From Microbulbifer sp. SAOS-129_SWC (GTDB lineage: Bacteria; Pseudomonadota; Gammaproteobacteria; Pseudomonadales; Cellvibrionaceae): a stretch of 64,000 bases of DNA. The translations under genes and the position numbers were made by a program. The stretch's first letter is position 1. Each line of letters starts with the position of its first letter. Shown piece after piece: positions 24,363 through 36,253 of the stretch. The stretch spans positions 1,793,001 to 1,857,000 of the forward strand of contig NZ_CP155567.1 in the NCBI RefSeq assembly GCF_039696035.1, written 5' to 3'. The notes beneath the pieces are model-generated. The model did not search any database and was not told the DNA's origin. It saw nothing but the letters and a program-made list of their open reading frames with translations.

Positions 24363-24452
24363 GCCTAACGGACGGCCTCGGGGCGGCTGGAGCGTAACCT
24401 AAACCCTCCCAGCTGCGTTTGCCGCGGCGACGACTATAGCCGCATGTTAGAG
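24363..24452 (-). repeat. attC-like recombination site A
   Basis: On the minus strand it starts with CTCTAAC and ends with GTTAGGC, 90 bp apart, with inner arms CAGCTGGGAG and CTCCAGCCGC that pair imperfectly. These match the R'' and R' core boxes of integron attC sites. The GFA gene starts just after the GTTAGGC end. Confidence 0.65.
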
Positions 24453-24539
24453 CATTCTGCTCATCTCCAATACTCTACCACTTTGGAAATGTTATCGCCG
24501 CGGAACTGAAAGCCGCTTCTTCGCTCCTGTTGGCACAAA

Positions 24540-24935
24540 ACGAACAAAAGATTAGCAATACCTCCGCCCATGGCCCGCCAGTTCTGCGAGGGCATTGAAT
24601 GGCAGACGCTGATGGCACCCCAGGTAGAGGTGCAGGACACCTGCCGGAACGTCTTCAGTGCGAAAGGCAAGGAGATTCACGCGAACCTGGAATTCTACAA
24701 CGGCGCGGTCTGCCTGGCGCTGGGTATTGCGGAGCGCTACTTCGCCTTGCTGTTCGCGTGCAGCCGGGTGTTTGGCTGGACCTCACACGTTCACGAGTTC
24801 AACCGGGATCCGCGGCTGATCCGGCCGCGGGCGCTGTACGTCAGCCGTTGAGTTGGTTGTGCCGGCGGGCCATCTATGCTGACGCAGGCGATGCTCCCGC
24901 CGGTATCCCGAGCCGGTTTGCCGGCTGGGGATGCT
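24540..24935 (+). pseudogene. Citrate synthase 3'-end fragment (first duplicate)
   Basis: An open frame at 24570-24851 encodes 93 residues matching the last 93 residues of the protein at 20527-21630 (MARQFCEGIEWQTLM, NLEFYNGAVC, RLIRPRALYVSR) with no indels but many substitutions. All sites for CoA binding and the first histidines are missing, so it cannot be an enzyme. Similarity extends past the stop codon toward 24935. It carries the same Glu in place of the usual catalytic Asp. DNA identity by eye is in the mid-80 percent range, so it is an old copy rather than an assembly artefact. Confidence 0.85.
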
Positions 24936-24941
24936 GCCGTT

Positions 24942-25256
24942 TCAGGTACTCTGATCTTCGAACAGGAACATTTGCACGTCCTCGTCGTTGGGCGCCAGAA
25001 TTCGGCGGTCCGCAGCACAAGCCTGCCCGCACTCGCTTGCAAATGCTGCTTTAATGGCATCCATCGATTCAAAGTGCAGAGTGCCTATGAGGTAAGGACT
25101 ATCCGCACCTGCCAGGGCGACGATGGGGCCCTTGCTGATCTCGTAGCGCTTGAGACCGGGCAGCTGTTTGGCCAATGGAATATGAACATCGAAATAATGT
25201 TTATCGAAGGCTGCCGGATCTGCAGGGGCCTTGTAAATAACCAGCATACGCGCCAT
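24942..25256 (-). CDS. EthD-family protein
   Basis: 104 residues with the dimeric ferredoxin-like EthD fold: MARMLVIYKAPADPAAFDKHYFDVHIPLAKQLPGL is the family pattern. EthD proteins accompany oxidative degradation genes; several act as small enzymes or stability factors. It is the last gene of a three-gene minus-strand unit (DUF899 protein, small MCPLC protein, EthD). An AGGAGGG site precedes the ATG at 25256. Confidence 0.82.
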   Translation of the reverse strand: MARMLVIYKAPADPAAFDKHYFDVHIPLAKQLPGLKRYEISKGPIVALAGADSPYLIGTLHFESMDAIKAAFASECGQACAADRRILAPNDEDVQMFLFEDQST

Positions 25257-25265
25257 ACCACCCTC

Positions 25266-33820: not shown

Positions 33821-34638
33821 GTCTTTGGCAGCATGTGCTCAACAATTTTTGTACCATAATCTTCCAGAACTGCTTCAACAAAAGACATGTGGTCAATATG
33901 CAGGTTTTGCTTAATACATGAAACTGTATATTTAACCTTCATCCTGCCTATCTTTAAATTTACACCTTCAACAGTTTTAACATATGCTGTATCGGGAATA
34001 ATTGTGTGCTCCAATTCAATACCAAACTCAGATATTGTTCTTGGAGTATTCCTATCTAGCCACTCTACAAGCGTAGAATCTTCGTAATCATCTTCAACAA
34101 TCACTATCGAATCTTTATTGAAACTCATTAATGCAGGGTTTTTATCAATAGCAGCCTTCGTATCCTCATCATTGCCATCAAAATCAGGAATTAAGTCGGT
34201 ATAGTTATTCCTTAGAAGTGTCATGTCGATGTTTATAATTTGAATGCCGCCATTCCAATCCTCCGTCTTCGGAAGCCTTAGAAGCCTTAATCCAATTTCG
34301 TAGAAGTTGGCATATTTTCCAGCACCTGATTGAAAGCCAACTGTAGTAAGAATAATCCCTGTACTATTGGGTATATCAGTTGTTAACGCATGCATATTTC
34401 TTACATGAATCAAACTTACGTTATGGCTATAGTGCTTACACTCAATCAAAACTTTGTGCTTAACTCCGGCATAACGAAACTCCCAATAGACATCTATTTG
34501 GTGCTCTACGCCTGATTTTCCAGTTATCTTCGCATCATGCCGGACGTCAATATTGTCTATGCCTTCTTTGGAGATAATATCTTCGTATAATCTCCGAGCT
34601 AGCTTTTCGTACTCTTTCGACGAAGTGGATACTTTCAT
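33817..34638 (-). CDS. Mrr-like restriction endonuclease-fold protein (cassette gene)
   Basis: 273 residues from the ATG at 34638, preceded by GAGGG. The N-terminal ~110 residues show the PD-(D/E)xK layout: Asp in HQIDVYWEF, then ECK in HKVLIECKHYSHNV, as in Mrr and Holliday-junction-type nucleases. The C-terminal half (~150-273) is unrecognised. No methyltransferase is adjacent, so it may be a modification-dependent or other defence nuclease. The stop codon lies inside the first core box of attC site F. Confidence 0.75.
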   Translation of the reverse strand: MKVSTSSKEYEKLARRLYEDIISKEGIDNIDVRHDAKITGKSGVEHQIDVYWEFRYAGVKHKVLIECKHYSHNVSLIHVRNMHALTTDIPNSTGIILTTVGFQSGAGKYANFYEIGLRLLRLPKTEDWNGGIQIINIDMTLLRNNYTDLIPDFDGNDEDTKAAIDKNPALMSFNKDSIVIVEDDYEDSTLVEWLDRNTPRTISEFGIELEHTIIPDTAYVKTVEGVNLKIGRMKVKYTVSCIKQNLHIDHMSFVEAVLEDYGTKIVEHMLPKT

Positions 34639-34651
34639 CAAACCCTCTTAG

Positions 34652-34711
34652 ACATAACGCTTGAGCGCACCGGCGCACTTTAGTGCGTCCGCGTGGCGTG
34701 ACTGGTTAGCT
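34652..34711 (-). repeat. attC-like recombination site G
   Basis: On the minus strand AGCTAAC and GTTATGT bound 60 bp, with the inner hairpin GCGGACGCACT-AAAG-TGCGCCGGTGCGC. The Shedu stop codon (34706-34708) lies inside the first core box and the nuclease start follows the last by 14 bp. Confidence 0.82.
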
Positions 34712-35863
34712 TTGGTTGTGCTGGACAATGAATTTTGCTCGCTCATAAAGTTCATCAAATGTGATAATTTCAGGATTAGAAGTGTTCTTCCGGAGTAGCT
34801 CAAAAGACCTCAGCTTATCTTTGTTTACGCCCTGCTCTGACAAAAATTCGCTCAAACTACCTATGACTAAATAGGATTTAGGCTGATAGTTATAGATTTC
34901 TTCGCCAGTCGGATTGCCTTCATTATCACTAGGACTAAGTCTGCTGGATAGATTTTCCACGGCAGAGGCTACTGTGCCCTGGACCTGTGCTATCGCGCCC
35001 GCTAATTCCTTTGAAGGTGCCCAGCAGCCAGATCGGTAAGGCTTACTTTCTAGTAGTGCTGTAGTATGAGTTTTAATCTCGACGAAACACAGATTGGAAA
35101 TAATACCCTTTGTTTTCATAAGCGCATCAACACGCTTACCATGTGAATCTACGCTATGCCCCTGAACTACTTGCTCTAGCTTTTTGTCGTCGAGACTTGA
35201 TAGGAATATATACCCTAAACCGTAACCAAATACCCAGGGATTCTTTTCAAAGTATTTTTGCCACAAAGCCTCATTGGAGCAATTTTTCCTTGCCCTTAAA
35301 TCATCGAAGTAGCTCTGGTTATTTAGAAGCTTGTCATAGACACTCAATTGCTTCTTTCGAAATCCAACAGCAACTATATCTTCAGTGGTCACCTCAGACT
35401 TGAGAACTTCTGCAAACAGCTCTTGGTTATCAACTAGGAAGGCTTTCGCCTGATGAGTTGTTAAAGCTATTTTTCGAAGCTCTTCGTCGGTGATATTTAC
35501 TTTCGCTTTGTTTTTGAAATCAACTGAATGAATATTTGCTAGAAATTCACAAAACCGACCGATTTCTTCACCTACAAAGGAAAATCCGGACCCATACGGC
35601 TGCCCCGTTTCTGATACGAACTTCTGTACAGTTAGGACAAAAATTTGCCTTGAATCTTCGATGAATTTCGCCTTTATATAGGTCTTTGCATCTGGCTTTT
35701 TCCTTAAAACTACTTCGTCGCGTTCCTTTGCATATTCATAGCCGTCTTCAGAGGGAAGTATTTTGGATGCGATACGAACCCTTCGCTCCTTATCTCCAAA
35801 TGCTTGGAGTGACGGGCTTATATAGGTTTTCCCCGGCAGAGGGTTCTGGTAATCGTCATCCAT
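34706..35863 (-). CDS. Shedu-type immune nuclease (DUF4263 family, cassette gene)
   Basis: 385 residues from the ATG at 35863 (MDDDYQNPLPGKTYIS), with AGGAG about 10 bp upstream. The C-terminal half carries the DUF4263 core: NEALWQKYFEKNPWVFGYGL, Asp in KRVDALMKTKG and ExK in CFVEIKTHTTALL, a PD-(D/E)xK nuclease. The N-terminal ~190 residues are the variable regulatory part seen in Shedu proteins. Shedu alone protects against phages in other bacteria. The gene is the outermost on the high-coordinate side of the array and is AT-rich compared with the core genes. Confidence 0.85.
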   Translation of the reverse strand: MDDDYQNPLPGKTYISPSLQAFGDKERRVRIASKILPSEDGYEYAKERDEVVLRKKPDAKTYIKAKFIEDSRQIFVLTVQKFVSETGQPYGSGFSFVGEEIGRFCEFLANIHSVDFKNKAKVNITDEELRKIALTTHQAKAFLVDNQELFAEVLKSEVTTEDIVAVGFRKKQLSVYDKLLNNQSYFDDLRARKNCSNEALWQKYFEKNPWVFGYGLGYIFLSSLDDKKLEQVVQGHSVDSHGKRVDALMKTKGIISNLCFVEIKTHTTALLESKPYRSGCWAPSKELAGAIAQVQGTVASAVENLSSRLSPSDNEGNPTGEEIYNYQPKSYLVIGSLSEFLSEQGVNKDKLRSFELLRKNTSNPEIITFDELYERAKFIVQHNQS

Positions 35864-36253
35864 ATTTTGTTTACTCCTGCCAGAAGCTAACATTTATATC
35901 ATGGTCGTAATGACCATTTTCCCCCGCCTCATATCCCAATCGAGACAATTTGACCAAGAATGCGCAGCAACGCCCGCAGCGTCAAGCCTTCAGGGTACTT
36001 GGTACTAAAAGCCAATCCCGAATAAACGGTCGCAGTGCCTCATATCCCCATTTTTCGGCAGAATGATAAAGCATTGTTTCCTATGAGATTTTCGCTGAAT
36101 TTTGCGGTAGTGCCTAGATCACAGTCCCGGTGATCATTTTCCGGGCAGTCTGCAGGTGGGAATATATTGAAGAGATTAAAAATCGATCAGTAGATAACGG
36201 GTAGAAAGGCGGCCGGAATTGCTCCGGCCGCCTTTATATTGTGTGCAGTGGGA
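35864..36253. other. Array edge: lone attC core box and AT-rich non-coding DNA
   Basis: AGCTAAC at 35885-35891 is a last core box (GTTAGCT on the minus strand) before the Shedu gene, and a hairpin ATGGTC-ATTAC-GACCAT type follows within 30 bp, but no first core box is found within 120 bp. It could be a truncated attC or a relic of attI. The remainder holds no gene. The ahpF terminator is at the far end. Confidence 0.5.
36208..36232. terminator. Rho-independent terminator after ahpF
   Basis: GGCGGCCGGA (36208-36217) pairs with TCCGGCCGCC (36223-36232), flanked by AAA and TTT, 22 bp after the ahpF stop on the minus strand. Confidence 0.88.

Follow-up and report, generated by a model that had tools for sequence, protein, structure and literature searches.

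We analysed a 64,000-nucleotide stretch of the Microbulbifer sp. SAOS-129_SWC genome (hereafter, the window; positions 1793001-1857000 of the single 4.63-Mb contig C1 of this host genome, G000), which contains an array of gene cassettes next to the gene ahpF. A preliminary description, made from the letters alone, had interpreted the array as a CALIN (cluster of attC sites lacking an integron integrase, as defined in the cited passages on IntegronFinder 2.0, PMC9024848), left by a former sedentary integron. The attC sites in the window are real. The more interesting fact is the attachment site attI at the edge of the array, and what this attI reveals about the rest of the genome: the window holds a CALIN with an attI at its head, and many more of this kind belong to the same multi-attI system.

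An Rfam scan of the window at gathering scores yielded zero matches, and attC models were therefore built de novo. The covariance model R1 was trained on 23 attC sites of the same genome, all outside the window. The features of the locus are listed from the right edge, and the cassettes are numbered in their order along the minus strand:

36254-37855, minus strand: ahpF, flanking host gene (TIGR03140, 818.8 bits, above cut-off)
36055-36253, no strand: spacer from attI to the ahpF stop; by eye, lacks intI (integron integrase gene) and the LexA-like box of loci L079 and L076
35888-36054, minus strand: relic type-B attI whose core, G^TTA, lies at the edge of the array; overlaps the previously described lone box, 35885-35891
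34706-35863, minus strand: cassette 1 gene, Shedu SduA (DUF4263; PF14082, 5.2e-34; PDLC00394, 1.4e-176)
34652-34711, minus strand: attC of cassette 1 (R1 match 34652-34710, 19.6 bits)
33817-34641, minus strand: cassette 2 gene, Mrr-type restriction endonuclease (PF04471, 7.7e-09)
33816-33822, minus strand: outer (right) box of the split attC of cassette 2 (from the sequence, by eye)
32639-33821, plus strand: IS110-family insertion in the attC of cassette 2 (NF033542, 145 bits; sister copies)
32484-32638, minus strand: left part of the split attC of cassette 2 (R1 match 32484-32647, 24.6 bits)
32164-32454, minus strand: cassette 3 gene, 96 amino acids, without family match at E 0.001
32072-32158, minus strand: attC of cassette 3 (R1 match 32072-32157, 58.5 bits)
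31007-32050, minus strand: cassette 4 gene, DUF4917/PDC-S21, SIR2-like candidate defence protein (PF16263, 3.6e-43; PDLC04960, 6.3e-105)
30946-31005, minus strand: attC of cassette 4 (R1 match 30946-31004, 36.1 bits); its left box is the divergence point from the related genome G034
29952-30920, plus strand: cassette 5 gene b, LysR-type regulator, divergent from gene a (PF03466, PF00126)
28845-29930, minus strand: cassette 5 gene a, aldo/keto reductase (PF00248)
28648-28719, minus strand: attC of cassette 5 (R1 match 28648-28718, 25.2 bits)
27751-28626, minus strand: cassette 6 gene, metallo-beta-lactamase-fold hydrolase, lactonase-like, below NCBIfam cut-offs (PF00753)
27697-27756, minus strand: attC of cassette 6, last of the main array (R1 match 27697-27755, 28.9 bits)
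24363-24452, minus strand: isolated attC in a block absent from G034 at this place (R1, 10.2 bits; alignment to L007:5340)

attC sites and the array edge

The R1 consensus of 23 sites follows the attC plan, with an invariant TAAC/GTTA pair, an unpaired spacer, a covarying stem and an extrahelical base, and this structure of complementary arms with boxes is retained in the window sites. Applied to the window, R1 gave six minus-strand matches of 19.6-58.5 bits at the positions where paired sites, one of them split, had been described. As a control, ten 20-kb stretches of the genome (200 kb in total, three of them flanking intI arrays) yielded one match of 11.8 bits with default filters and E up to 10. 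One of the eight stretches first chosen as arbitrary controls, L014 (3.10-3.12 Mb), was excluded, as it contains another cassette array. The inverted repeats noted earlier within the sites were also found: in an alignment of the seven window sites fitted to the model, 93.9% of the cells are paired, compared to at most 42.1% when the alignment is slid, and two-sided changes occur in 8 of the 12 pairs.

The seventh site is marginal by the covariance model and attC-like by sequence. R1 scores it at 10.2 bits (24363-24451), which is chance level: with filters off, two plus-strand matches in the window, which look like chance, have similar scores (10.0 and 9.7 bits). On the other hand, its alignment to the attC at L007:5340 scores 58; 500 mononucleotide shuffles, aligned to the 23 training sites, reach 31 at most. 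Hence, the window has six consecutive attC sites by the model, plus the one at 24363 by sequence alone. As the nearest intI is ∼400 kb away, the array is a CALIN by definition, in agreement with the preliminary description.

The box at 35885-35891 had been listed as a lone one. The box itself is present but, judged by homology, it is the core of a relic attI, related to the sequence beside type-B integron integrases (types A and B were assigned by IntI identity). In blastn searches, the right flank of the array matched loci from other species (L073, 4e-31; L074, 2e-17; L079, 1e-6), and in other Microbulbifer genomes the homology of the flank usually starts at the same TAAC or a few bases from it. 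Over ∼165 bp, the edge sequence is conserved at the attI of type-B intI loci from several species and genera, where it occupies the place between the first cassette and intI. Beyond this type-B attI (attI-B), L079 has a full intI, L076 a partial one, and L073 fragments.

Twelve named loci encode an IntI that shares 64% or more identity with L079 IntI, and an attI-B profile of 11 sites matched 11 of them. The species are M. flavimaris, M. donghaiensis, M. sediminum, M. marinus, and M. halophilus, along with Saccharospirillum, Nitrincola, and Marinimicrobium records. In the strong cases, about 300-330 bp separate the core from the intI match downstream of it. Weak matches were found at L094 (22.9 bits) and at L090 and L091 (16.8 bits); two of the weak loci belong to M. 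agarilyticus. Both attI-B profiles include the window's own site in training, and therefore its own profile score is no proof by itself; the profiles do find the sequence upstream of type-B intI outside the training set. Separately, partial attI-B-like matches without a core are located at L085:8091-8198 and L086:8098-8204, beside a LysR gene next to a citrate-synthase-family gene in genomes G023 and G033.

No intI adjoins the attI in the window, as it would in a complete integron: about 200 bp without intI are followed by ahpF. The search of the flanks proposed earlier thus recovered an attI at 35888-36054 and no intI, with nothing below E 0.05 in the 2.5 kb searched behind the attI. By eye, similarity of the window to the other loci seems to continue through the attI-intI spacer towards the start of intI, while intI itself and the LexA-like box present in L079 and L076 are absent. 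The relic attI at the first cassette, homologous to attI linked to type-B intI, supports the earlier idea of a former sedentary integron.

Arrays of the host genome and of the genus

A search of the whole genome, in which 150 of 2278 candidates were scored and some of the window sites are missing, gave at least 91 attC matches in about 12 clusters (c1-c12, with limits set by eye). Two type-A intI were found, at 1.23 and 1.39 Mb, each encoding an integrase ∼51% identical to L079 IntI; we found no type-B IntI in this genome, and none closer to L079 IntI than ∼51%.

The DNA upstream of type-A intI was compared at 20 places in 19 other genomes, and AATAAACTGTTA or a close variant was present in all 20, ∼300 bp from intI. 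The type-A attI (attI-A) model R3 was built from 14 intI-adjacent sites in 13 genomes, G000 not being among them; the other six of the 20 sites, with the core variant AATAAAACTG, were excluded. When 150 of 213 candidates in G000 were scored with R3, the eight best (91.4-54.2 bits) were the heads of eight arrays, namely, the two intI arrays and six intI-less ones (c6-c10 and c12). These were followed by two core-less matches (41.5 and 32.2 bits); the remainder scored at most 18.2 bits, and the 18.2-bit match is a detached piece of the c6 head.

A third head type, attI-C, has the core CCTAAGAATRAACTGTTA and is found at the heads of c1 and c11 (G000:C1 254505 and 4221965). Two copies of this core are present in G000, and nine in 6 of 40 genomes, with one mismatch allowed. 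The attC sites are on the array side at all nine places (23 of 23 matches), and no intI was found within 1.5 kb at any of them. Overall, 11 of about 12 arrays of the genome have a core-bearing attI of type A, B or C, and two have intI.

Array c2 has some peculiarities. An attI-like sequence without a core is located at G000:C1 558382-558580. A 1.08-kb element, putatively IS30-like, is present in 100% identical copies in c1, c2, c3, c4, and c10. Its copies in c2 (553677-554759 and 557126-557500) flank attC on the strand opposite to the decayed attI beyond them, which suggests an inversion inside the array.

The same site types recur across the genus. In surveys that scored only 55 or 72 candidates per genome, attI-A matches were found in 38 of 40 genomes (208 in total, E ≤ 1e-5) and attI-B-like matches in 35 of 40 (144 in total, E ≤ 1e-3). 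The same 40 genomes have 77 places with intI matches, 55 of them longer than 840 bases, some being pieces of one gene. Among the strong attI (100 of the 208 type-A matches, at least 60 bits, and 46 of the 144 type-B matches, at least 61 bits), 75 and 31, respectively, have no intI match within 1.5 kb, a share inflated by the ends of draft contigs. Twenty orphan attI-A loci, hand-picked and hence non-random, from five other genomes of one to three contigs, all head arrays, with 60 of 60 attC matches (E ≤ 0.1) on the array side; the exact core AACTGTTA is retained in 16. For attI-B, including intI-linked loci, 20 of 28 loci have attC within 1.5 kb, and all 42 matches are on the array side (28 of 30 loci were counted, the window and its G034 counterpart being omitted). 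In the family outside the genus, 7 of 57 genomes have attI-B-like matches (E ≤ 1e-5), at most five each.

Cassette turnover and origin of the integrase-less arrays

The attI is ∼200 bp from ahpF, without room for intI, not only in G000 but also in G034, G023, and G033, and G016 has a part of it, with the core missing. By sequence matches, G034 is the closest of the 40 genomes searched. It shares with G000 the citrate-synthase-family, EthD, DUF899, and AraC genes and the cassettes with the metallo-beta-lactamase-fold and aldo/keto reductase/LysR genes (94.5-98.3% amino acid identity; 95.9-98.3% for the distal cassettes). The two arrays diverge at an attC box, the left box of 30946-31005, and differ from there up to the attI. 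In this interval, G000 has four cassettes whose DNA is represented in G034 by short, attC-sized matches of at most 86 bp, and G034 carries other cassettes. As the cassettes proximal to attI differ and neither genome has intI there, the cassettes have changed despite the missing intI; an array whose proximal cassettes are unlike those of its intI-less relative need not be dead.

Other arrays of the genome share cassettes. Arrays c4, with intI, and c9, an orphan, share a 401-bp stretch of 100% identity. Between c4 and the orphan c7, the first cassettes are 97.7% identical, compared to 78.9% for the two attI, with the break at G^TTA. In the orphan c12, the cassette at attI recurs at an internal position of that array (99.8% over 479 bp), and the intI array c3 has 1261 bp in common with the orphan c6 at 99.1%. 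This pattern would be the expected trace of integrase action in trans, and homologous exchange is also conceivable.

We propose that a chromosomal integron of the type-B IntI lineage was lodged beside ahpF, and that its intI and promoter were probably lost before at least four related species diverged, with the attI and the cassette array retained as one array of a multi-attI genome. We give this explanation a probability of about 80%. It draws on the attC sites, the homology of attI, the absence of intI beside it, the attI at array heads, the shared cassettes, and the difference from the relative that starts at an attC box. In principle, the two type-A integrases could act in trans on the remote arrays, excising cassettes and inserting them there, in which case such action would have made the cassette changes, and the genome would function as a multi-attI integron whose orphan attI may still be recombination-competent. 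As no type-B IntI was found in G000, the window's own attI may be silent in this genome and its attC still usable. The broader model of a distributed integron, in which one or two SOS-regulated IntI serve about ten dispersed attI-headed arrays per genome in trans, the intI-less arrays being live capture sites and the orphan attI being kept as landing pads, has in our opinion an even chance of being correct.

Several observations weigh against this explanation or limit it. The attI-B profile has no match at eight named loci with IntI 43-58% identical to that of L079 (Marinobacter, Kangiella, and two of a gammaproteobacterial metagenome-assembled genome), nor at a Gilvimarinus locus with 64% identity; therefore, attI-B is not general. 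Array c2 has only an attI-A-like sequence lacking the core, and the attI-like matches at C1:2168949-2169113 and C1:3392051-3392254 also have no core; together with the one at 558382-558580, these are probably dead copies. The G034 array includes a distant Mrr-like protein (29% over 116 amino acids), and its halves are on two contigs joined by synteny only. With regard to the attC sites themselves, folding of isolated single-stranded DNA is weak: of the six sites folded, 30946 is the only clear outlier (z -2.9), and the other five range from -1.85 to +0.19, mostly non-significant. Cassettes could also be moved by homologous recombination between attC or attI repeats. Finally, the DNA behind the six orphan attI-A of G000 has no intI match below E 0.05, and the 20 orphan attI-A loci of other genomes have none within 4 kb at E 1e-3.

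These last results bear on the possibility that the orphan attI, both in the window and of type A, are copies of a duplicated small attI module rather than products of in-place intI loss. For type A, where no intI remnants are detected behind the orphans, duplication without intI is as possible as loss. Duplication would also agree with the large fraction of strong attI lacking intI, some of them on draft contigs, and with the heads of c6, c7, c10, and c12, where homology to intI loci stops ∼20-25 bp past the attI model. Against it, for type B, are the partial or fragmentary intI at the attI in L076 and L073, the short pieces at further loci, and the apparent extension of the window's similarity through the spacer towards the intI start. 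Taken over both types, we regard duplication as rather unlikely.

It is unlikely, too, that the array is a dead relic, on which no integrase has acted since intI was lost and whose differences from G034 are the result of ordinary recombination or deletion. Such decay would be in line with the lack of a type-B IntI in the genome, the attC split by an insertion sequence, and the isolated attC at 24363, but it does not readily account for divergence running from an attC box to the attI with different cassettes in between, nor for other orphan arrays of the genome having near-identical cassettes directly at the attI. Entry of cassettes at a non-classical chromosomal attG site, with the array never having had an attI or an adjacent integrase, was dropped as very improbable: integration at attG sites is possible (Loot et al., 2024, as cited in the discussion passages of PMC12444791), but the edge here is attI-B, conserved over ∼165 bp with intI-linked sites.

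Cassette contents and relation to known systems

The earlier description of single-gene cassettes holds for five of the six; cassette 5 has two genes, encoding the aldo/keto reductase and the divergent LysR regulator, and the attC at 24363 is isolated, outside the single-gene series. As had been observed, three stop codons are inside a box (27751, 33817, and 34706), and two more are at most 6 bp away (31007 and 32164). Three of the six cassettes encode proteins similar to anti-phage or restriction proteins; PADLOC models indicate this for two, and Pfam alone for the Mrr-type one. The site described as split (32482-33822) is indeed an attC, interrupted by an insertion sequence whose transposase matches the IS110 family (NF033542, 145.2 bits, cut-off 140). 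Its longest open stretch is 259 codons, compared to 321 in three sister copies, which adjoin attC matches in arrays c3, c7, and c11; the ends of the insertion are approximate, being set by alignment with the copy at 2187468. In addition, a run of GACAGC hexamers (about 32539-32604) expands the variable part of the split attC.

On the right, the identities of ahpF and ahpC are supported by NCBIfam. To the left of the array, the 3' end of a citrate-synthase-family gene is present in three copies (21346-21645, 24567-24866, and 27298-27597; 81-87% identical) between blocks of accessory genes. The first block, with an open reading frame of 466 amino acids without a Pfam match, a GFA gene, and the attC at 24363, is absent in G034 at this place, and the second one is present. 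It looks as if the blocks entered by recombination at the end of this gene.

The following comparisons concern the cited passages of the respective papers. Like other CALINs, the array has at least two attC in a row and no intI nearby; unlike those described in PMC9024848, where attI is said to be poorly described and undetected outside class 1 integrons, it has a recognisable attI. Saccharophagus degradans 2-40, a marine gammaproteobacterium formerly in Microbulbifer, similarly has a core integron and five satellite sites that share the repeat of this integron (PMC2386152); there, the satellites are described by the repeat, with transposition of a repeat suggested as the source, and the cited passages do not mention attI at them. 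In the Shewanella prophage M16-3 (PMC9892861), the same attI heads a complete integron and a CALIN, but this is one cryptic prophage, whereas here there are many loci across the genus, three attI types, and shared cassettes. Xanthomonas has integrons at ilvD and CALINs at conserved loci, seen as an ancestral platform progressively losing activity; in the passages cited, attI is not described at the remote CALINs (PMC12444791). The Delta-attI-type cassettes (PMC12901181) are also attI-derived sites away from the intI-proximal position, and they recombine with IntI1; unlike the chromosomal arrays starting at a full attI studied here, they belong to individual resistance cassettes of mobile integrons. 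The IS110/IS1111-type element inside an attC of the window is similar to the attC-targeting elements of the IS1111 group, such as ISKpn4 and ISPst6 (PMC11187229). In the open-licence literature searched, we found no genus described as having many arrays that are headed by attI and lack intI.

In the survey reported in the cited part of PMC9024848, the number of CALINs (2961) is close to that of complete integrons (2760). In Microbulbifer, attI can be recognised by comparison within the genus, and one is present in nearly every array of the host genome. Should these sites be live, counts of intI would be no measure of integron capacity, and the origin and change of CALINs would become testable in a culturable marine genus.

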